Shown: positions 32,577 through 53,519 of the stretch, piece after piece
Layout: every line of letters starts with the position of its first letter
Position numbering within the stretch: the stretch's first letter is position 1
Source of the DNA: Nannochloropsis oceanica
Lineage: Eukaryota > Sar > Eustigmatophyceae > Eustigmatales > Monodopsidaceae
DNA: 64,000 bases
Reading direction: 5' to 3'
Assembly: GCA_004519485.1 (NCBI GenBank)
Contig: CP038131.1
Span: forward strand, 331,501-395,500
Notes under the pieces: model-generated
The model's database searches: none
Told to the model about the DNA's origin: nothing
The model's input: the letters and a program-made list of their open reading frames with translations, nothing else
Position numbers and translations under genes: made by a program

Positions 32577-35500
32577 ATGGTGCGGATGAGCACCCAACTC
32601 CGGGCAATCCTCTGGAAGAACGTTCTGCTCAAGCGGCGACATTGGGCTTCCACCTTTTTCGAGGTACTTGGAGTCGTGGGTATGGAGAAGAGGAGCGATG
32701 AATGTGTGTATGTGTAGAGGTGACGACACTGCCCGGATCGCAGCGCGATTCGACTCGTCCACGGCCTTCCCATGGCGTATGCTCCACGCGCCACGTCATG
32801 TGCGTTGGACGGTGCTACAGACCTAGACTTCCTGAAAAACATCCCTTCTACTCGAAATTTTTGTTTTATTTTAATTGAACTAGCTTTGTATTCGTGTCTG
32901 TGGTCCCTTTCCCTGTGAGCTTCAAAGTCTTAGACGCACGGGGCTGCGAGGAGTAGGGGGACGGGCTTCTTCACAATGTGCCAATGACGGCTCATGACAT
33001 GGCTTCATGCTTCCGTCATCCCTGCTTGGGGTGTAGCGTAATGCCATTGAGAGGGTCAAGGGACGGCTTCTGTCCGTATCTGCAATCATTTCCTAGGGGC
33101 AATAAATATTTTTGTGTCGATGAGAATCTTTTTTGCCTTCAAAGCTTCCCTCCCGGGTATGGTATTAAGCAAGCTCACACCTTCCTTCAATTGCTCACAC
33201 ACGAAAGATCCCATTCGTATTCACCACAAACGCCAACAGGTAGCCATCCCCGTATTCTTCATCGGTCTCCTCGTCTGGATCAAAACGATCTGCACCAAAC
33301 GCGACGCCCCCACTGTAGCGTACACCTGTGGACAGACCAAAGGCTTCGACTTCTACACCCCCTCCATCTCCCTCACCAACATCTCCAGCACCTCCCTCCT
33401 CCAATGCCTCAAGCCTCCCGACACCTGTGCTGAGGCCAATTACTACCGGGGCGAACTCTCCGAGCTCGATCCCCGCCTTCCCTCCCTCTACCTCGAATAC
33501 GGCTACACCCCTTCCGGGAAAGGTTATCCCTTCTACGGCATTACCGTAGCCGACGATAGCCAAATCTACTCACAGATTAATAATCAGCTAGCCCAATGGA
33601 ACATTTCTGGACTCGCCAATAACCCCTCTCCCACATTCAACCAAGTCACCGAGTCCTACCTCCGCGCCAACGCCATCCTCGTCGTGTGCCCCGCCTCCGA
33701 CTCTTCCCCTTCCCTCGTCGCCGCTGCCCAATCCCTCTACACTGGCCTCCTGAGCACACTTTCTTGGGAAGGAAAGCATGACCAGGCCGTGGTATTTTTC
33801 CCCTCCCAAGCCGCGATCGAAGCAAATGTCACCGCCGAAGGGTACGAAAAAGGGGTGAAAATTGCCGCAGCCATAGTGGTCAACGAGGTCGATTTGCTCC
33901 AAGGCCCCAAGTGGGATTATTCGATCCGTGTAAATTTCACACAAAACTACGAGATGACTCAAGAGACTGTCGGGTGTTTGTATGCCAATTGTGCTTTTCA
34001 ATACACTGTCCCTACGACTAATTTCCTAGTGAATCCCTTCCAGAAACCGGCCAAAGCCGATTTTATGTTTGGGTATACTTATTCAGCGTTTTCGACGCTG
34101 CAGAAGAGTGTGGACGATTTTATTCTAAATAGCGTGTCGACTCAAGGGCCGGTAGAGACGACAATTTCCTTGGGGCTCTTCCCGGAGCCGGCTTTTCATT
34201 CGGACGATTTCTTAACCGTTATTGCCGCGTCTCTTGCCCTGTTTTTTGTCCTTGCGTTTCTGTACCCCGTTTCGAGGTATCTCCGGGCGTTGGTGTTGGA
34301 GAAAGAGACAAAGATAAAGGAGACAATGAAAATCATGGGGCTATCTGCCTGGGCGGCGAACCTCGCCTGGGTAATTACGATGGTGGCTCAGTCGTCAGTT
34401 ACCGTGCTTCTGATGACCCTCCTAGGCGCCCGCACCGTCTTCTCCTACTCCAACTCCTTCCTTATATTCCTATTCCTCTTCGTCTTTTCCCTTGCTCTTG
34501 TCATGTTTGTCTTCCTCGTCTCCACCTTTTTCAGCAAAGCCAAAACTGCAGCCACTGCAGGGACCATCCTTTTCTTCGCGACCTTCTTCCCCTACTACGC
34601 GCTTACTGGTCCCGGGACGGCCGGCCCAAGGGCCAAAGCTGCCGCCTGCCTCCTCGCGCCTACCTGCCTAGGGCTTGGTGCAGACGTTCTGGCAGCTTTC
34701 GAAGGAGGTTTGATGGGGTTGCAGTGGGACAACATTCACGTTCAGCCGGGAGAGACTAATTTTTCGTTCACTGCAGCCATAGGCATGCTTCTGCTCGATA
34801 CTGTGTTGTATGGCCTTTTGGCAGCGTACTTAGAAGCAGTTCTTCCCTCTGAGTTCGGGACTCATCTACCTTTTTATTTCCCTCTTTTGCCTTCTTATTG
34901 GGAAGGGCTTTGGAAGAGGCTGAGATGGAGCTGGCGTCGTTGTCTAGGGGGTCGAGGGACTGTAGATGATGATTCTGCTGCGGCTGCTGGAGAGGTGGGG
35001 CAGCCGCTGTTGACACTTGCTGAAGACTACGAGGAAAGCGATCGGTATGAAATGGAAGGAGAAGGGGCAATAGTCGAAGGGGACGAAGAAGACGCGCCTT
35101 TGATCGAACCAGTAGACCCAGAGCTGCGACGACAAGCGGTGGAAGGGCGTAGTTTGATTATACGCAACCTCCGCAAAGTTTTTGAGACCACGTCTGGGAA
35201 TAGAGTAGCGGTTGATAGGCTGAATATGGAAATGTATGAAGGGCAGATAACTGTGTTGTTGGGTCATAATGGCGCAGGGAAATCGACGACCATTAGTATG
35301 CTTACTGGGCTTTTGCCTCCCACCTCGGGAGATGCGCGGGTGCGTGGGCTGTCGATGACGAGGGATATGAGTGGTATAAGGCAGCAGATGGGATTATGCC
35401 CGCAACATGACACGCTTTGGCCAGAGCTAACGGTTACGGAGCACTTAGAATTGTTTGGGGTTTTGAAGGGTGTGAAACCTGGGAGAGCCCTCAAGGAGGA

Positions 35501-38500
35501 GGTGGCAAAAATGATTAGCGAGGTCGGCTTACAGGATAAGGCGTTGGTGGAATCCTGCCAGTTGTCGGGGGGGATGAAACGGAAGCTCAGCTTGGGGATG
35601 GCGTTGATCGGGGACTCGAAAGTGGTGTTGCTGGACGAGCCGACTTCAGGTAATTTCCTCCCCTTCCTTCCTCTCTCCCTCTCTCCTTTTGCACCTTCTC
35701 GCCATTCCGCCCATTTGAAACTTCTTTTCATCTACTCCTTCAGGCGTGGACACCTACTCCCGGCGGCAAATTTGGGGGGTGCTCGAACGAAACAAGCGGG
35801 GGCGGGTGATGCTGCTGTCGACGCATTTTATGGACGAGGCTGATATGCTAGGGAACCGAATAGCCATCATGGCCGACGGACGTCTTAAAGCGATGGGCTC
35901 GGGGCTGTTTTTGAAGTCGAGGTATGGGGTAGGGTATACTCTGGTGGTGGTGAAGGAGGGGCAGACCGTACCATCGGCGCCAATTGAGGCTGTTGTCCGC
36001 GCTGCTGTTCCGGCGGCGGAGGTGACCAGCGAGGCTGGCGCTGAGCTGGCATTTCGGCTGCCGTTTGAAGCGAGCCCGGCTTTTGCTGGGTTGTTTCGGG
36101 AGCTGGATGCGCGGAAGGCTCTGGGAGAGTTAAGGATCTCGACGTATGGCATCAGCGTTACGACATTGCTGGAGGTCTTTTTGAGGATTGGCGATGATCG
36201 AGTCAATGCTCATGGATCTCCACGGACACCCTTACTACCACCCTCAGCAGCAGCAGCAGCAGCAGCAGCAGAAACAGAGGTGGAGAAGAAGAGCAAGAGC
36301 ACCTACAAGAATGACATGGCTCTTGTCGCTCGTCCTGAGCGGGGAAACGCGTCGTTCAGTCGACATATGAAGGCCCTGCTGATCAAGCGATACATCTACG
36401 CCACACGCGACCGCAAATCTCAATGCTGTCAACTCGTCCTCCCTGCTCTCCTCATCCTGTTTGGCCTGAGCCTCATCAAACTCTTAGGAAATCCTTTGAT
36501 CCAAGATAATCTTGTTCTATCTCCGCTGATGCTAAATCCCAACTTCGCCCCGGAGGCCCGTAATCCCTTTCCTGTCCTGGCCACTTCCCCTGCCGCCCGC
36601 GCTATCATGGCCGAACTGGATGTAAGTCGGGGATTATCAGCTTCTTATATTGATGTTGCAGCAGCAACAGCAGCAGCAGCAAATGCGGAGGAAGATCCGT
36701 TTAAAGCTTGTGCGGTGGGCGCGACGGAGGTGCTGGCAATGAGTAGCTATTTGGCTAGCACGGCAATTGAGGGCAAGAGTGGGCCAGCCTCCAGGTATGG
36801 TGCTTTGACGTTTGCGAATACGACAGACGCAACCCACTTCACCTACAACTTGTTGTTGAACGCCTCGGCTTTGCATGGGGCGGGTGTGTACATGAATTTG
36901 GTGTCGAACGCGATTTTGAGGACTTTGTTGGGGGTTGAGGCTGGGGCTGACTCGTCGTCGTTGCCGTCAATTATTACCCGGAATCATCCACTGCCTTTGA
37001 CACATGAAGAGGAACGGGCTTCGTTCCTTATAGAGGGCAACACAGCGAGCACATTTGTGTTGATTGGGTTGTCATTCATAAGCGCGAGTATCGCTATTTT
37101 TATCGTGAAGGAAACGGAGAGCAAGGCGAAGCACCAGCAGATCATAAGTGGGGTTTCTCTCCTTGCTTACTGGCTTGCGAATTTCGCTTGGGACGTCCTA
37201 TCGTGGCTTCCACCGCTGGTGATTACCCTTGCACTGATGTACGCGTTTCAAATCGATTCGTATACGACAGGGGAGGCAGCGGGGGCCTTCGTCCTCCTTT
37301 TTGTGGCTTTCGCTCCAGCTGCTACTGCCTTCACTTATGTGTGGACGTTCTGTTTTTCCAGCCACAGCGCCGCGCAGACTGTGATTTTGTTTTTGAATTT
37401 CTTGACTGGCTTGGTGTTGTCGATTGTCTCGTTTGTGCTTTCGCTTATAGACAGCACCAGGGCGATAAACATCAAGCTTCGATATGTCTTCCGTTTGTTC
37501 CCTGCCTTCTGCTTCGGGGACGGTTTGCTTCAATTGGCCCTCTGTGTGGATGACGTTTGCCCGAAGATAAGTGCTGCGGGTATCTCAATCACTGAGCCGC
37601 TTACGCCATTGCATTGGGACGTGACTTTAGCGGATGTCGTGTTTCTATTAGTCGAATCGGCGATTTATTTCCTGATTACTCTCTTGATTGAACATGCGAG
37701 GGCCCAGCCCTGGATTGCTGCGTTGGCGGCCTGGCGGCCTGCGTGGTGGGGGTTCTGGAGGAAGAAGACGCGGGCATTGCAGGAGGGTAAAGCTAAAAAG
37801 GACAGGGAGGAATCAAGTGAGGACAAGCGAGGTGGTAGTGTTAGAGACGGTGGAGCAGGCGCAGAGGAGGACGAGGGTGAAGACGAGGACGTCACAGCGG
37901 AGGCTGAACGGGTGCTGAGTGGGGCAAGCAAGCGCGCCAAGGACGTGGTTCGATTGGAAAAGCTCCGTAAAGTTTATCAGACACCGCAAGGCCCTAAGGT
38001 AGCCGTGCGGGGGCTAAGCTTCGGCATCCCTAGGGGGGAGACGTTCGGTTTTCTGGGTATCAACGGTGCTGGCAAAACGACGACTCTCTCGATGCTGTCC
38101 GGGGAGTTTCCCCCCACTTCAGGGGCAGCGTATGTCGCCGGTCACAGCATCACAACGGAGCAAAACAAGCTGAGGAAGAATATTGGGTATTGCCCACAGG
38201 TAGGGGAGGGAGAGAGGAAGATATGGGGTGGGGATGGGGGTAAAGGAAGATGGTATAGGAGGGAGAGGGAGGGAGAGAGGGAGGGAGGGAAGGAAAGACA
38301 GGGCTTTGCTCATATTTTGATCGCCCTAGCGGAGATGAGAACTTCATTCCGCGCATCCGATCAGTGAGTGACTTACCTCGAACTCCCTTCTTTCCTTTCC
38401 TTTCTCCCTCCCTCCCTCCCTCTCTCCCTCCCTTCCCTCCTCAGTTTTCGGCGTTGATCGACGCCTTGACCACGCGTGAGCATCTCGTCCTCTTTGCCCG

Positions 38501-42743: not shown

Positions 42744-43802
42744 TCAATATAGCCTCATAGCCTGCTCATTCTCTCTTCCCCTCCTTGTCTCCTCCTCCTC
42801 GTCCTCCTCCTCTTCCTCCTCCAGTGCCCTCAAGCGGCCAGCTCGATGCAGCAGTATGTGCTGCATCACCCCTATTCGTACGTCAAATGCCTTAATTTCT
42901 TCATTCACCTTTTCCAAGCCTCGTCTCATCATTACCATTGGAGAGTCATATGCCATTCTTTCTCCTCCCTTTCCTCCACTTCCTCCTCCTGTCTGCCACG
43001 TCGAGCCTTCCTCTCCTGATGGGTGTTCCCATCGGAGAGCCTCCTCTTCTTCGCGCTGCAAACGGTCGCATCGATCTTGGAGCCGCCCGAACTCTATCTT
43101 GAGAGTGTCCACCCGTCCTTGTTTAATCTGGTGCGCGTTTTCAGCTTCATTAATTTGAACCTTGACTTGTCCCACTCGCTCCCTGCACCGCTGCTCTTTG
43201 CTTTCACTCTCCTCGTCGTGCTTCAGTGGGAGTTTGGGGTCCCAGCTCTTGCCCTCGGCGACATCTGGACTTGTGCAACTCTTGGATTCTTTGGCTTCTG
43301 TCAATTTAGCTGCCAATTTAGCTTCTGGTTGGAGAGTCGTGAAAGACAACATGCTTGTGGATCCGTTCTTTTCGGGTGCTGCTGCTGCCTCCTCGCTCTC
43401 AGCCTTATTCAAAGTCTCTTCCGATGGCACGTACACTGGAGCTTGCCATACAAATCCAATTTTAGCCAGAGCAGCATTGCAAAGAATGTCCAACAATCGG
43501 CATACGTCCTTTCCGTATCCTAGCTTTAGTGCAGCCATCTCTTCTCCCGTTGACATGCCGCAAAGCTGCAGGTTGCTGAGGTCGGCGACGAGTGCCTCAA
43601 CGGTGGTGTGGCAGTGTGTAGGATCGGATTCACCCTTCAATCGATTGCACAGCCATGATGCTACCGTGAGAAACAGCGCGTGCTGTCGCGGCTGCTTTAC
43701 TACGAAGGACAACCTGTCCAGGCGAGGAGGAGGACACGACAGGGGTCTACCGGCACCCTTTAAATCGAGCACTTTTAGCTTCTCGACGATGGACTCCATC
43801 AT
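42744..43802 (-). CDS. IFT57: Intraflagellar transport protein 57
   Basis: IFT-B complex subunit needed to build cilia. Single exon, 352 aa (animal forms are about 430). The N-terminal calponin-homology-like domain is clear: MESIVEKLKVLDLKG opens it, HALFLTVASWLCNRLKG follows, and GYGKDVCRLLDILCNAAL with KIGFVWQAPVY closes it, as in other IFT57 proteins. The middle, about residues 135-200, is a shortened acidic linker. The C-terminal coiled coil ends with SPMVMMRRGLEKVNEEIKAF and DVRIGVMQHILL, matching the human segment that reads DIRIGVVEHTLL. The stop follows an acidic tail, so the gene looks whole. It is the second ciliary gene in this window, on the opposite strand from CEP120. Confidence 0.88.
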   Translation of the reverse strand: MMESIVEKLKVLDLKGAGRPLSCPPPRLDRLSFVVKQPRQHALFLTVASWLCNRLKGESDPTHCHTTVEALVADLSNLQLCGMSTGEEMAALKLGYGKDVCRLLDILCNAALAKIGFVWQAPVYVPSEETLNKAESEEAAAAPEKNGSTSMLSFTTLQPEAKLAAKLTEAKESKSCTSPDVAEGKSWDPKLPLKHDEESESKEQRCRERVGQVKVQINEAENAHQIKQGRVDTLKIEFGRLQDRCDRLQREEEEALRWEHPSGEEGSTWQTGGGSGGKGGERMAYDSPMVMMRRGLEKVNEEIKAFDVRIGVMQHILLHRAGRLRALEEEEEEDEEEETRRGRENEQAMRLY

Positions 43803-44560: not shown

Positions 44561-46841
44561 TCACATTAATGCCCGCTTGGCCCGAATCAATAGGAAGACG
44601 TAAGCTAGAAACCGAAATCCCACCAGCAATACCACTAACATGGCAATACAAAATCCAATCTGCCCTTCCTCCACTCCAATATAATCAAAAACAAACTGAC
44701 GCAATTTTGGAGTGTACTTGTCTGAGCCATACTCATTCAAGACAATCGCCTGAAACGCGTACTTTATCATCGACACCTTGTCCAAAGGCACGAAATACCA
44801 GGGCACATTGTCACTGGAATGCAACACCCCCGCGTACAAACTCATCGGCAGCATCAATACTGGTCCTAACGCCACCGCCACGCCATCGTGCCCCGTCAAT
44901 GTTGACAATGCATACCCCAAACTACAACTCGCATTCGCCATCAACACCAAGGTGACGATGAATACAAAAAATCGACTCGCTTCCGGCGCAAAACCGATCA
45001 ACCAGTAAGCAATAGTCCCAAATATCGTCGGAAACAACACCTGATACGGAACTTCTGCCAACGACAAACCCAAAAAATAGGAGCTCGGCCGATTCGCACT
45101 CGTCAGGTACTCCCGCATGAAAACCGCCATATCCTTCGGAATCACCTGCGACACCGTGAACATGGAAGCGATGCTCTGATTCATTATCAATAAAAACATC
45201 GCGCCCAACCTATTCTTAGTCGCGCTCGAGTCAAACGGCTGCTGCAGGTACACCAACCCCAAGATCAAGCCCATCGATATGGCTTGCCCAAATCTTACCT
45301 TCGCCAAGACCGGCTCCCTCCCGTACGACTTCACCGTCCGTTTATAACTCTGTACGAATTGCGTCCAAGCCGTTGCTGGGAACTCCCGACTTGACACCAA
45401 GGCACTCATCCCTCCCCCGCTTCCTCCCTCCTCGACATCCGCCATCCAGGCCCTGTTATCCCTCGCCAGGGTCGACGTTTGGTAGGCGCGCAACATGTCC
45501 TCAACCGGCACCTCCGGCTTCTCCAACAACACATTGACGGCCAATTTCTCGATTAAATAGTCCGCAGGGTTGTAAAACTGAGGGCATTCCAAACCTAAGG
45601 TGTTAGCAAAGTACTCAACACCCCCCGCACGGGTCCCGCAGTAGGCGGTTTGTCCCCGGGCGAGGAGGGTGAGGTGCGTGAAGAGCTCGAAGATTTCCGA
45701 GGAGGGCTGGTGGATGACGCAAACGACGAGCCTGCTGCTGTTCGCCAGGCCCTTGAGAATTTTGCAGACTACAAAAGGACAGAGAGGGAGAGAGAGAGGG
45801 AGTTGGTTTATATCCCGCCTCTTCTCACCAAGTGTACTCCTTCTGACAAAGATTCTGGCAACAGACACAAACCTATTTCCCTCCCCCCTCCCATCCCCCG
45901 CCCCCCGCCCTTGAAACCCCAAACATTCACGTACCTGATAAAGCCATAAAAGCATCTAAACCTGACGTCGGCTCATCCGCAAAGATGATCTCGGGGTCGG
46001 ACAGCAATTCCGTCGCCACCGACAGCCGCTTCCGTTCGCCTCCCGAAATCCCACGAATAAAAGCCTGCGGGCCACCGATCAACGACTCGGCACACTTGCT
46101 CAAATTCACGGCTTCAATCACCTCCTCCACCCGTCGCAAACGATCTGCCACAGCTACTTCCTTCCTCACACGTACCATGGCATGAAATGTCAAATGCTCC
46201 CGCACTGTCAGAGTCGCAAAAAACATATCCACCTGATGCACGTACGCCGTGCTCGAGAAGAAATGGGTATCCACTGGATTTCGATCAAGGTACACACAAC
46301 CCTCAAAACGATGATTCCGCAGCGAAATGCAATCCAGCAAACTACTTTTCCCCGCCCCGCTAGCCCCCATTAACGCCAGCATCTGTCCCTTCTCCGCGTG
46401 CCCCACCACATTATACAAAATATTTCTCTCCGCCTTCATCCCATTCCCTCCATTTAGCGCCGCAAAACTCGACTGACTCCCTCGACCACTTGCCCTCGCA
46501 GTGGCCAAGCGAACACTACCATCGTTGCTCCCAAACGGTCCGCCCGTGTCAGACATATTCCCACCGGGCTGTCCCAACAACTCAAAATTTCCCTGCAGCC
46601 TGGCTATGTGCTTCTTCTTGATTGGCACGCTCAATTTCCGAATGTTCCATCGCAATGATGTGGCAGTGCTGGTCTTGGTGGCGGCCGAGGTCGGGCCTCC
46701 CCCGCCATTCTTCTGGTTTTGGAGATGCAAGCTGGGACTGCTCCCGCTGAGCTTGATTGGGGTCGAGCTGGCGACAGGAAGCTTCCCCAGCTCTACGTCT
46801 CGGTGAACAGCCGCGAATGACTCTTCCTTATCATGCGACAT
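44561..46841 (-). CDS. ABCG-subfamily (WHITE-type) half ABC transporter
   Basis: Half-transporter that works as a dimer, with the ATPase domain before the membrane domain. Two exons, 46841-45935 and 45768-44561, join in phase 1 (GTACGT to TTGTAG) and give 704 aa. The NBD has Walker A GASGAGKSS, the Q-loop in YVHQVDMFFATLTVREHL, the signature ISGGERKRLS and Walker B IIFADEPTSGLDA; the intron falls just after this motif. The second exon adds the switch segment RLVVCVIHQPSSEIFELF and then six membrane helices, including FMREYLTSANRPSSYFLGL and SLYAGVLHSSDNVPWYF. The N-terminal 120 residues are Ser/Gly-rich and not conserved. An upstream in-frame Met exists. Substrate unknown; ABCG relatives export lipids, sterols or toxins. 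It shares a divergent promoter with the CHAT-like/NB-ARC/SH2 gene. Confidence 0.93.
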
Positions 46842-47405
46842 GGTGTAATGAGTATGCTGATGGTGATGGTGACGGCAACGAAGAGGAGTGCGGTCGCCAG
46901 TATATAGGGGTTGGGGAGGGGACGCGGGCAAGGAGGAGGACAAACGAGTCTATGGGGAGACGGTCTTGACGCTGGCAGGCGCCTCTCTACCTCACTTTTT
47001 GACGTGTATGGCTGTCTATCATGCGTAAGTGTGTGGATGAGGTTGAGTCACTTATACTAAAGTGTTAATTGGACCGCCGCTGTTCCAATTCAGGCTCGGT
47101 GCTGGGTGGTCTTGCGTGCAAGGAAAATCTGACTGAGGGCACGCGACCGCGGAGCTCCAAGGGAATCGTGCCCATTCAAAGCAAAGCACGCACCTTCCCT
47201 GTGTGTATATTGGGCCTGTGCATATGGTCACGTGTGTCACTGTCGATTGACACGTGACTTTCTTTGGCAAGATCACTTCCGGCGCCATTATCATCAATCA
47301 GGCTCTCCGAGACTCTCGCCATCATCGCTTCATTGCAAGTTCCTGGGCCAGTCTCATGCTTCTTCACACAACACCATACACCACTCACACACTACAAGAG
47401 GGAAT
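46842..47405. promoter_or_regulatory. Divergent intergenic region, ABCG/STAND gene
   Basis: 564 bases between an ABCG half-transporter and the CHAT-like/NB-ARC/SH2 gene. An in-frame open stretch reaches back to 47232 ahead of the chosen start at 47406, but it reads like leader sequence. No clear promoter motif is seen. Confidence 0.45.
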
Positions 47406-50120
47406 ATGTTTGCCAGGTTTCACTTCCCGGGTTCTAGGTCTTCCAGAGACTCAGGGGCAGCGGCAGCCAAGGATGGTGGGGGCAGCAGCAGCAGCAGCAG
47501 CAGTAAGGATGGAACTCTTCGGCACGTCTCGACGCAGCTACAAGAACCCAACCCCACGCGGTCCCCATCGTTTATGCTTCACGGAGGCGGGATGCCCCAA
47601 GGGCCATTGGCGCCATGTCGTCTCGGATATCTGTACTCGGCGCCGCTGGTTCACAAGGCTGGAGGACAGGCTAAGGAATTGGACATGCAGGACGGGATGC
47701 ACATAGACATTAGCCAGGAACTTGGACGGCTCAAGCGGACCTTGCACGATGCACAACGCCGCATTCTCTTTCGTGCCGAGGTGGCTACAGTGAAGAATTG
47801 TCGGAAGCTCTTGACGATTGGCTGTCGGATGCTGCACTACACGGGAATTGGCAAGCCATCTTGTCTGATTTTTGAGAAAGAGAAGCCTCTGGGGGAGACT
47901 AATATTCTCAACATTGAGACGCTGACAGAGCTCTTCGCGGCGGGCGGGGTACGGACACAGCTAGTGTTTGTGAGTGCACGGCATTCAGAGATTGTGGGGA
48001 GGGCGTTTTTAGCGGCGGGTGTGCGGCATGTGGTAGCTATGAAATGGGATGCCAAGGTCTCCGACCGCGCCGCTTGTATATTCGCTGAGTTTTTCTACCT
48101 GTCCATCGCGATGGGCCGCACCGTACGCCAGGCATTCGAAGTAGCATCAACGGCAGCAGTGACGGAGACGGGGGCTTCGGGGGACGACGAGCAATTTCTG
48201 CTGTTGCCTGCGGAGGGGGACCACGACCTAGCCATATTTGATGACGCGGAAGTGGGGAGTTTCGTGGACGAATCTCCCCCACCAGTGCCGAATACCTGCG
48301 ATCCCCCTCCTGTGCCGTTTGTCGGGCGTAATGTCGCGGTGCAGGAGGTGGTGGGGCTATTATCGATGGTTTCGCAAGGGAACCGTTGTATTACTGTGCG
48401 TGGGCGGCCAGGGGTGGGAAAGACCGCCCTAGCTTCTCGTGTTTGCCAATATCTCGCAGAGCGGAACTTATTTGATGCAATTTATCTCGTCCCTCTTCGA
48501 AGAAAAGTTTACGGGTCGTATGAGAAAGAGACACTGTGCAAAGTCATGGGTGCAGCGATCGGGTTTGAAGACGCGTCAAACGAGCGTGAGATCGTCTTCC
48601 TCCTCCAAGACAAACACCCTTCCGGGCGCGTCATCATGGTCCTTGACGGACCCGACCGTTTCTTCAACCGATCCAATTCCCTCGTACAAGTCCTCTCCTA
48701 CCTGCTGTCACGTATCCATGGCCTCCACCTTCTAGTCACCGCAGAGGGCTCCGTCCTAGGAAGTGGTTCTGGTCGTCTCGAAAGCTCCTCCGAAAAAGTC
48801 GTCCATCTCGGCCCGCTTTCCGACGTGGCAACAGCACACATGCTTGCAAACATTGCTCCTCCTGGTTTCAAACTTGAGGAGATGATGAGTCGACCCTATG
48901 CGACGAAAGAAGAGGCGTATGCAGAATTAGCGGCCTCGCCCGTGATTAGGGAATTGCGGGGCCATCCGAAGGCGATTGTGATGTTTGCCCCTTTGCTCGA
49001 AGATCATCGATTAGAAGATTTATTCGAGAAGGCAAAGCTATGTTATCTTGAGGCAAGTACGGCTGCTGAAATAGATTTGCCTTCGAAGGAGGAGGAAGAG
49101 GGGGGAGGAGGGACGGGGGGGAGGAGGAGTAATTTTGATGCAGAGGCGAAGGAGTTGGATGCGTCGACGCTGGAAAAGGAGACAGAGGCGGCGAGGAGAT
49201 TTTTGAGGGATCCCATGTCCCAGCGATTGTGGCTGGAAGTGGTGCGACAAGGGGGGGCGAGGCAATCGAGTAGTATGCATCAAGGAGTGCCCTGGTATAG
49301 GCTGACGGATGCGCTGCAGGAGGAGTTGAGAGGGGCGTTGGTGGACGCGTTGAGGATGTTGAGGCTCCAAGTTACTGATTCCTCTGCTGCCCTTAGTAGT
49401 TCGGTAACGATGAAGATGTCGGTTGGAGCTTTCGCTGGTGCTGGAGGGGTTGAGGAGAGCAAGGCCTCCATGTCGCCCTCGATGCCCCTGTCGTCTGTGG
49501 GGACGGAAGCGAAGGAGGAAGGAAAAGGCGCCGAGGTATCAACTTATAGGAGAGGAGGGGAGACAGACGATGATGGACTGGTCCGTGGTTTGGAGCCGGG
49601 GGACATTCAGTTTATCAAAGATAGGTTGGGAGCCAGGATGCCGGGTAACGATTTGGTGAAAATCACAGATTTTTCAGTCTTTTGCGAAGGGTGGGTACCG
49701 GTGCAGAAGTCGATCCGGCTGCTCTGTCGGGAGTGGCTCTGTAATTCCCCCCGGCTTGTGCATGGCTTTTTGTCGCGTAAGGAGACAGAGGACTTGCTTC
49801 AAGGCCACAAGGAGGGCACTTTTATCTTTCGCTTTAGCACAAGCCATTTGGGCTTGTTGTCCATTTCGTTCGTCGGCAAACGGCCTGCCTCGATTAGTGA
49901 AAAGAAAACGGACACAGATAATGCTGTGATAGCTCCATTCCGGCATTTTCTGGTTCAAGTGGAGGAGGACAGGCACTGTGTGGTGTTCATGGAACCCGGC
50001 CGCTCCCGGCATGCGTCATTGGAGGATTTGGTCATGTCTTCCACCAGTTTGCTTGAGTTTTATCCGGGTGTACCTAAGGCACAGGCATTGGTGCAGATGC
50101 AGAAGTACAAGAACGATTAG
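47406..50120 (+). CDS. CHAT-like / NB-ARC / SH2 protein (STAND signalling NTPase)
   Basis: Single-exon gene; 904 aa from the Met at 47406. Residues 1-60 are Ser/Gly-rich. Residues about 100-260 resemble the end of a CHAT (caspase-like) domain: LHYTGIG at 143, LVFVSARHSEIVGRAFLAAG at 186-205, then HVVAMKWDAKVSDRAA and AEFFYLSIAMGRTVRQAFEVA. The catalytic positions are changed: Ile148 where CHAT has His, and Arg192 where it has Cys. Residues about 305-540 are an NB-ARC NTPase: FVGR, Walker A GRPGVGKT (333-340), Walker B VIMVLDGPD (409-417), TAEGS near 445 and GHPKAI near 519. Residues about 560-720 are linker. Residues 760-895 form a STAT-like SH2 domain: VHGFLSRKETEDLL, then GTFIFRFS with the phosphate-binding Arg809. 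No membrane segment or signal peptide is seen. Confidence 0.85.
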   Translation: MFARFHFPGSRSSRDSGAAAAKDGGGSSSSSSSKDGTLRHVSTQLQEPNPTRSPSFMLHGGGMPQGPLAPCRLGYLYSAPLVHKAGGQAKELDMQDGMHIDISQELGRLKRTLHDAQRRILFRAEVATVKNCRKLLTIGCRMLHYTGIGKPSCLIFEKEKPLGETNILNIETLTELFAAGGVRTQLVFVSARHSEIVGRAFLAAGVRHVVAMKWDAKVSDRAACIFAEFFYLSIAMGRTVRQAFEVASTAAVTETGASGDDEQFLLLPAEGDHDLAIFDDAEVGSFVDESPPPVPNTCDPPPVPFVGRNVAVQEVVGLLSMVSQGNRCITVRGRPGVGKTALASRVCQYLAERNLFDAIYLVPLRRKVYGSYEKETLCKVMGAAIGFEDASNEREIVFLLQDKHPSGRVIMVLDGPDRFFNRSNSLVQVLSYLLSRIHGLHLLVTAEGSVLGSGSGRLESSSEKVVHLGPLSDVATAHMLANIAPPGFKLEEMMSRPYATKEEAYAELAASPVIRELRGHPKAIVMFAPLLEDHRLEDLFEKAKLCYLEASTAAEIDLPSKEEEEGGGGTGGRRSNFDAEAKELDASTLEKETEAARRFLRDPMSQRLWLEVVRQGGARQSSSMHQGVPWYRLTDALQEELRGALVDALRMLRLQVTDSSAALSSSVTMKMSVGAFAGAGGVEESKASMSPSMPLSSVGTEAKEEGKGAEVSTYRRGGETDDDGLVRGLEPGDIQFIKDRLGARMPGNDLVKITDFSVFCEGWVPVQKSIRLLCREWLCNSPRLVHGFLSRKETEDLLQGHKEGTFIFRFSTSHLGLLSISFVGKRPASISEKKTDTDNAVIAPFRHFLVQVEEDRHCVVFMEPGRSRHASLEDLVMSSTSLLEFYPGVPKAQALVQMQKYKND

Positions 50121-52460: not shown

Positions 52461-53519
52461 TCAATTGGTATAGCTGCCACAGGCCCCAGCAGTGGCCGCC
52501 CGACTATCGCAGGCCTCGGGGAAAGAACAATCACACACTAGCGGGCTTCCCTTACGCATCCTCCGAAAACTAAGTGAGACGCGGCGGCCCCGCGCGACGA
52601 GCTGACCATTTACCTTGTCTGTTTTCCGACTCGCCAATCCATGACTCCATGCGTACCGGGCCTCTCCCTGCAGCACAAGCAAAGACCTTCGTGGCAGCAG
52701 TAGAGAGCAGCGTGCATCCACTTCTCCCTCTTCCAGTCCATCACCGGCCTGTCTCCTTCTTTGCTTCCTAAAATCCATAACACAAGCACTCCCCAAAGAT
52801 ACAATCAAAAAGCCGTCCTCGAATAGCGAGTGCACATCGATATGATTAGCTATGCCCGATCCCGGCTCATATTCATTCACTGTCATCTGATCTCTCTCCG
52901 CACAAGGAAACTCCTCCTTTGCCAACGGTCCACTCGACCAGGACACACTCAATGCCTCCTGTTGCTTTCGAATACGATTAAGTAAGGCTTGGCATATAGA
53001 AGGAATGGGAGCGACGGGCGCAGACAGCCCAAGTTTCCGGGTTTTGAAATCAATGGCCGCTGCACCATAGTGCTGCGTCCTTCGAAAGACTTGGACGGTA
53101 TCCCATTCCGCGCTATCTACTAGAGCTAGGAGTGCCGCCTCCTCTGCTTCGGATAAAAATGGGAGTATTTGCAGGCCGGGTGGGAGGTGGGCATCGGGGA
53201 AAGGGGCACCTGTGATAGGGTCCGCTTGCACGTCTTCCGGCTGTGGATTAGACTTAGCCTCGTAAAATCGTCCGAACGTGATTTTAACTGGGTGCTGCGA
53301 AAGCCCAAGTGGAAGTATCTGTTTCTGCCATTGTTTCAGGACATCTTCAGCAGTCTGCTGAGTCGCAAAGCAGACAAAGCTCTTGGTAGTTTTCACGTCG
53401 ACGGCCGTTGCGGTTGGAAAGAGGGAGCGGAGACAGGTCTCTAAAGGCTGTTGTTGACCCGCACCCACGCCCAAGAGGCAAAGCGTGTTAGAGGGCTGCG
53501 GAGATGGACAATATGGCAT
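52461..53519 (-). CDS. ALKBH8-like 2-oxoglutarate/Fe(II) dioxygenase with RRM-like N-terminus
   Basis: AlkB-family oxygenase; ALKBH8 hydroxylates the modified wobble uridine of certain tRNAs. Single exon, 352 aa. Residues about 10-80 look like a small RRM (NTLCLLGVGAG strand, then KSFVCFAT as the RNP1-like strand), as at the start of human ALKBH8. The oxygenase follows: GLQILPFLSEAEEAALLALV, RRTQHYGAAAIDF, MTVNEYEPGSGIANHIDVHS carrying the HxD iron ligands near residues 224-226, the second His in YAWSHGLASR near 292, and RRVSLSFRR with the 2-oxoglutarate Arg. The C-terminus holds a short Cys cluster (CDCSFPEAC). There is no methyltransferase domain, unlike the animal fusion, so that step would be separate. 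It is divergent from DCAF7. Confidence 0.9.
   Translation of the reverse strand: MPYCPSPQPSNTLCLLGVGAGQQQPLETCLRSLFPTATAVDVKTTKSFVCFATQQTAEDVLKQWQKQILPLGLSQHPVKITFGRFYEAKSNPQPEDVQADPITGAPFPDAHLPPGLQILPFLSEAEEAALLALVDSAEWDTVQVFRRTQHYGAAAIDFKTRKLGLSAPVAPIPSICQALLNRIRKQQEALSVSWSSGPLAKEEFPCAERDQMTVNEYEPGSGIANHIDVHSLFEDGFLIVSLGSACVMDFRKQRRRQAGDGLEEGEVDARCSLLLPRRSLLVLQGEARYAWSHGLASRKTDKVNGQLVARGRRVSLSFRRMRKGSPLVCDCSFPEACDSRAATAGACGSYTN

Follow-up and report, generated by a model that had tools for sequence, protein, structure and literature searches.

We analyzed a window of 64,000 nucleotides from the Nannochloropsis oceanica genome (contig CP038131.1; G000:C5:331501-395500), in which one intact gene encodes a protein combining a CHAT domain, a STAND NTPase of the NACHT type and a STAT-type linker followed by an SH2 domain (Table 1). 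A previous interpretation made from the letters alone, hereafter the sequence-only reading, had described a single exon without frame breaks, and this was borne out: the open reading frame runs uninterrupted from ATG to TAG, and its product of 904 amino acids is identical to the deposited N. oceanica 'hypothetical protein VYU27_002850'. Three close relatives have the same domains and match the protein at 86, 79 and 80% identity over 100, 93 and 91% of its length; together with it, these proteins (P0003, P0004 and P0005) form what we call the Nannochloropsis-like group, a label that the three carry by inference. The start codon is supported by the MF.R start that P0003 and P0004 share with the protein, P0005 being cut at the N terminus. 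Genome-wide counts given below refer to the 29.26-Mb assembly of 32 contigs.

In the Pfam scan of the protein, the profiles of NACHT (35.5 bits, cut-off 26.7; residues 328–479), SH2 (34.7 bits, cut-off 21; residues 786–877) and CHAT (31.6 bits, cut-off 24; residues 104–252) all scored above their cut-offs and, with E-values spanning 1e-8 to 1.5e-7, the three matches are beyond chance. The sequence-only reading had named the parts CHAT-like, NB-ARC and STAT-like SH2, and the first and the last of these hold in both profiles and structure comparison: structure predictions, each covering a single part of the protein, gave a caspase-like fold closest to CHAT, with SAVED-CHAT as the best structural match, and an SH2 domain of STAT flavor. 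The middle part is better described as NACHT. NB-ARC is borderline, with 23.1 bits against a cut-off of 23.5 in the protein scan and 23.9 bits in a six-frame search of the genome, and among the 19 aligned family members, SH2 was matched at E ≤ 0.01 in 19, NACHT in 16, CHAT in 13 and NB-ARC in 10; given its lower score and narrower occurrence, we dropped NB-ARC as the main label. The six members without CHAT start downstream of that domain in the alignment. TRADD-N was not found in the Pfam scan, and in searches with NCBIfam and PADLOC models, P0001 gave weak matches on the P-loop part and P0006 and P0026 gave none.

Table 1. Features of the gene and its product, with positions in the window
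Feature	Residues	Position	Strand	Remark
Whole gene: intronless open reading frame; CHAT, NACHT NTPase, STAT-type linker, SH2	1–904 plus stop	47406..50120	+	
CHAT (caspase-like) domain	71–285	47616..48260	+	approximate boundaries
Ile148 (att), at presumed place of CHAT catalytic His	148	47847..47849	+	I in 4/4 Nannochloropsis-like, H in 14/14 others
Arg192 (cgg), at presumed place of CHAT catalytic Cys	192	47979..47981	+	R in 4/4 Nannochloropsis-like, C in 14/14 others
STAND NTPase of NACHT type	303–535	48312..49010	+	approximate boundaries; Pfam NACHT 35.5 bits
Walker A, GRPGVGKT	333–340	48402..48425	+	
Walker B, VIMVLDGPD	409–417	48630..48656	+	
GHP	519–521	48960..48968	+	like GxP motif; seen in family alignments
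Helical module ahead of spacer	586–651	49161..49358	+	model helices; conserved W and L positions
Variable low-complexity spacer	652–727	49359..49586	+	
STAT-type linker	728–783	49587..49754	+	STAT profile and structure matches start upstream of SH2
SH2 domain	784–880	49755..50045	+	Pfam SH2 34.7 bits
Arg809 (cgc) in FRFS	809	49830..49832	+	invariant 19/19
C-terminal tail, STAT-like segment YPGVPKAQAL, Tyr901 near end	881–904	50046..50117	+	aligned with STAT6 YPKKPKDEAF

Both Walker motifs proposed by the sequence-only reading were located, and they are present in all four Nannochloropsis-like proteins. Walker A, together with the NACHT profile, marks the NTPase as a member of the STAND/NACHT type; Walker B reads LDGPDR and, in its final acidic residue, deviates from D[GAS]hDE, which we take to be the form of NACHT-clade STAND NTPases. 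The GHP triplet resembles the GxP motif found downstream of STAND NTPases. Judging from the modeled helices, the module that follows may correspond to half of an EF-hand-like pair, namely the first, and within the spacer behind it, residues 661–725 are 57, 43 and 39% identical to P0003, P0004 and P0005. Elsewhere in the genome, a STAND-type NTPase matching both NB-ARC and NACHT (L005/L017, G000:C17:256732-257307) lies in an open frame of 2451 amino acids.

The protein is not alone. Relatives were sought with the N. oceanica protein, P0006 and P0023 as queries, which returned 6, 20 and 4 proteins, and as each search scored the approximately 8,000 candidates sharing most words, the observed spread of the family is a lower bound. 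According to a precomputed list, nine proteins beyond the Nannochloropsis-like group (P0006, P0008–P0014 and P0019) carry CHAT, NACHT and SH2, and the three-domain order for which the sequence-only reading had proposed a search recurs in them and in the diverged P0026 from the oomycete Peronospora effusa. P0006 is an MMETSP transcript marked 'type:complete' and bears all three domains, so that in its lineage they reside in one message. In P0026, which UniRef labels 'SH2 domain-containing protein', CHAT scores 45.1 bits, NACHT 22.0 (cut-off 26.7) and SH2 20.2 (cut-off 21); P0023 similarly has CHAT over the cut-off, with 39.9 bits, whereas its scores for NACHT (18.3) and for SH2 (17.7) fall short of the respective cut-offs, and RFSE is kept in the SH2 part of both. 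Since related proteins of other stramenopiles keep the domain order, the N. oceanica protein appears, from these sequence comparisons, to belong to an undescribed stramenopile family of signaling proteins. In three further proteins, P0021 (Pelagophyceae), P0024 and P0027, a STAND-like NTPase accompanies CHAT and no SH2 is listed at E ≤ 1. By its profile matches, P0027, of 1236 amino acids, carries CHAT and nSTAND1 with leucine-rich-repeat matches below the cut-off, an example of CHAT-STAND proteins with other companions.

A tree of the CHAT and NTPase parts of 18 proteins, built with the two catalytic columns removed, groups the four Nannochloropsis-like proteins (98/98) and the nine P0006-like proteins (96/97), and one change suffices for the three SH2-less proteins (98/98). 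The stem of the Nannochloropsis-like group is long, 1.78 changes per column, and fast change thus preceded the present stability; with six very long end branches and a backbone without resolution, the gain or loss of SH2 cannot be dated.

The CHAT domain has lost its catalytic pair. When 18 CHAT proteins, four of them Nannochloropsis-like, are aligned, the columns that we take to be the catalytic sites, on the strength of the family pattern and the alignment itself, hold Ile148 and Arg192 in N. oceanica, and by the same alignment the loss extends across the whole Nannochloropsis-like group (Table 1). With both residues gone, the domain is probably inactive as a protease in N. oceanica and a proteolytic output is unlikely. 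The gene might be decaying, of which the loss could be taken as a sign, or be two genes modeled as one, an explanation that we nevertheless find scarcely credible: the reading frame is uninterrupted, the relatives are co-linear, P0006 is a complete transcript, and identities to P0003, P0004 and P0005 are 98, 95 and 93% in CHAT and 97, 93 and 96% in the NTPase, compared with 79, 68 and 71% in SH2. A disarmed CHAT kept about as tightly as the NTPase makes decay unlikely and a binding role likely, and its strong conservation suggests a pseudo-protease scaffold. One could go further and see the entire protein as a housekeeping scaffold that does not switch, the NTPase and pseudo-CHAT forming a rigid platform, comparable to Raptor with its caspase-like domain, and the SH2 serving as an anchor. 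This is improbable in our judgment, as the Nannochloropsis-like proteins retain their Walker motifs and the relatives their CHAT catalytic pair.

The SH2 domain, with a profile score over the cut-off, contains Arg809, presumably the phosphate-binding arginine of SH2 domains. Arg791, Arg809, Ser811 and Ser813 are invariant in all 19 aligned proteins, and the matching residues of STAT3 are, we assume, those that hold phosphate. The C-terminal part has the arrangement of STATs, a linker and SH2 followed by a YPxxPKxxAF-like segment, the latter alone scoring 7.2 bits against STAT6. The chain ends 13 residues past Lys891 and lacks the conserved tail tyrosine that STATs have after SH2: Tyr901 is found in all four Nannochloropsis-like proteins and is absent from P0006 and P0010–P0014. 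Membership in the STAT family was rejected, as the Pfam scan at E ≤ 1 found none of the STAT N-terminal, coiled-coil and DNA-binding families and no tail tyrosine is family-wide. The tail of P0023, with a tyrosine after the segment YTNGLPKTEAF, is more STAT-like than that of Nannochloropsis.

Whether the domain reads phosphotyrosine, as the sequence-only reading supposed, has to be weighed from two sides. The invariant pocket residues argue for it; several observations on the genome argue against it. Three exact patterns for canonical tyrosine-kinase loops (HRD[LIVMF]AxRN, HRDLRAAN) had no match in the genome, although such patterns miss other forms (e.g., HRDIRAAN) and loops split by introns; among the 148 matches to PF07714, the best 8 all have loops of the HRD[LIVM]K type; and Y_phosphatase gave two weak matches, which by motif we take to resemble dual-specificity and Cdc14 enzymes. 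Spt6-type and some other SH2 domains bind ligands other than phosphotyrosine, and the algal domain might likewise read a phosphoserine or phosphothreonine, or an unphosphorylated peptide, that sets the NTPase. We regard this as a possible but doubtful alternative: the kinase and phosphatase findings speak in its favor, but the phosphate pocket is unchanged throughout the family and tyrosine can be phosphorylated by TKL or dual-specificity kinases. The SH2 profile PF00017 has two matches in the genome, one being the present gene. The other, L001 (G000:C4, match 987959-988141), scores 48.0 bits and has a weak EF-hand-like Cbl_N2 match ahead and acidic stretches and sub-cut-off TPR matches behind. 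For the oomycete Phytophthora infestans, the portion of PMC3019232 available reports two tyrosine kinases and just four plausible SH2 proteins.

From the observed domain content, the conserved order and the missing catalytic residues, we infer a route of signaling through the chain. As input, the linker-SH2 would dock a phosphotyrosine of a partner or of another subunit through Arg809; docking would permit nucleotide exchange and oligomerization of the NACHT NTPase, and the output would lie in the clustered CHAT domains. In relatives with His and Cys, CHAT may then cleave a target; in Nannochloropsis, it would act as a pseudo-protease, conserved in order to hold a partner or to mask it. That the protein is a member of an unnamed stramenopile family working in this manner, with SH2 as phosphotyrosine input, NACHT as switch and CHAT as output, has in our view roughly an even chance of being correct. 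A bolder version, which we entertain only tentatively, is that of a pre-animal, phosphotyrosine-gated, apoptosome-like machine, in which stramenopiles employ the C-terminal half of a STAT outside any transcription factor, as the phosphotyrosine sensor of a STAND switch of caspase-like kind, and in which Nannochloropsis subsequently turned the protease into an inactive scaffold.

As to its role, we favor a conserved signaling hub over a classical immune receptor, since the genome has a single CHAT match, five NACHT matches (three over the cut-off, the present gene included) and the protein carries no sensor repeats: the Pfam scan at E ≤ 1 revealed no LRR, WD40, TPR, ankyrin or other repeat families, and where NLRs have their C-terminal repeats, SH2 stands instead. 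A true NLR-like receptor for immunity or cell death in the alga, reminiscent of the fungal CHAT-bearing NLRs that the accessible part of PMC12881547 places in cell-death control, is very unlikely on these grounds; moreover, the conservation is high, with no diversification, and the protease pair is gone.

Around the gene, 18 neighboring ORFs of the window were scanned and none contains related signaling domains. The divergent neighbor (44561-46943, minus strand) comprises two overlapping frames that encode an ABC transporter ATPase and ABC-2 membrane parts and is probably one half-transporter gene containing an intron; two other overlapping frames (33114-38367, plus strand), each with ABC2_membrane_3 and ABC_tran, may form a single full-length ABC transporter or two in tandem. 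A 2OG-Fe(II) oxygenase (60.8 bits) lies at 52461-53519 on the minus strand. At 42744-43802, also on the minus strand, is a match to IFT57 (86.6 bits), a protein of intraflagellar transport, which is curious as Nannochloropsis is usually described as non-flagellate.

Phosphotyrosine/SH2 signaling and caspase-fold/STAND machinery are usually seen as separate systems. With a conserved one-chain fusion in stramenopiles, which has the protease residues in some members and lacks them in others, the control of an NLR-like switch by tyrosine phosphate becomes directly testable outside animals, and since one group has lost the catalytic pair naturally, the protease role can be told apart from the scaffold role. 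The use of a STAT-type linker-SH2 without the rest of a STAT bears on the origin of STATs. Should the bolder version above be true, tyrosine phosphorylation would be tied to a STAND/caspase-fold switch in one chain and the STAT linker-SH2 would be an ancient mobile module.

The sequence-only reading knew of no described protein with all three domains. This agrees with the literature searched, in which no paper contained both 'CHAT domain' and 'SH2 domain', most subscription journals lying outside its coverage, and no title or abstract start among the matches listed describes the CHAT-NACHT-SH2 order; PMC7159879 has neither 'SH2' nor 'CHAT' as a whole word. The protein does not stand alone, given the relatives with the same order and the oomycete entry in UniRef. 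The sequences can be retrieved from public databases (N. oceanica, Peronospora) but are, to the extent of our search, undescribed; each domain is known, as are CHAT-bearing NLRs in fungi, and the novelty is the fusion to a STAT-type linker-SH2. The nearest published mention that we found of SH2 in such proteins is PMC8195603, which, in the sections available, lists SH2 among the C-terminal adaptor domains of NCOA6-clade proteins in conflict and apoptosis systems; those proteins are defined by TRADD-N, and the CHAT-NACHT-SH2 order was not met in these sections.

Compared with STATs (STAT6, STAT5 and Dictyostelium STATa; for the linker-SH2, Gao et al. 2004, as cited in the part of PMC12470777 available), the algal protein shares the linker, the SH2 and the segment behind them but has CHAT and NACHT in place of the STAT N-terminal, coiled-coil and DNA-binding parts and no family-wide tail tyrosine. 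The fungal CHAT-bearing NLRs, as far as the available text of PMC12881547 describes them, similarly fuse an N-terminal CHAT effector to a STAND NTPase; the algal C terminus is a linker-SH2 rather than repeats, and the CHAT pair is lost in the Nannochloropsis-like group. With the bacterial SAVED-CHAT and Craspase TPR-CHAT proteases, the protein has the CHAT fold in common, whereas the partner domains differ and Ile and Arg replace the catalytic His and Cys. Pseudo-caspases such as FLIP(L), in the excerpt of PMC7586951 available, provide a parallel for a protease fold without catalysis, a property that the sequence suggests for the algal CHAT, which is not a caspase and is fused to an NTPase and SH2. 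P0026 of Peronospora effusa has the same order, with CHAT over the cut-off, an NTPase and a STAT-like linker-SH2; it differs in retaining the CHAT His and Cys and in its sub-cut-off NACHT and SH2 scores.
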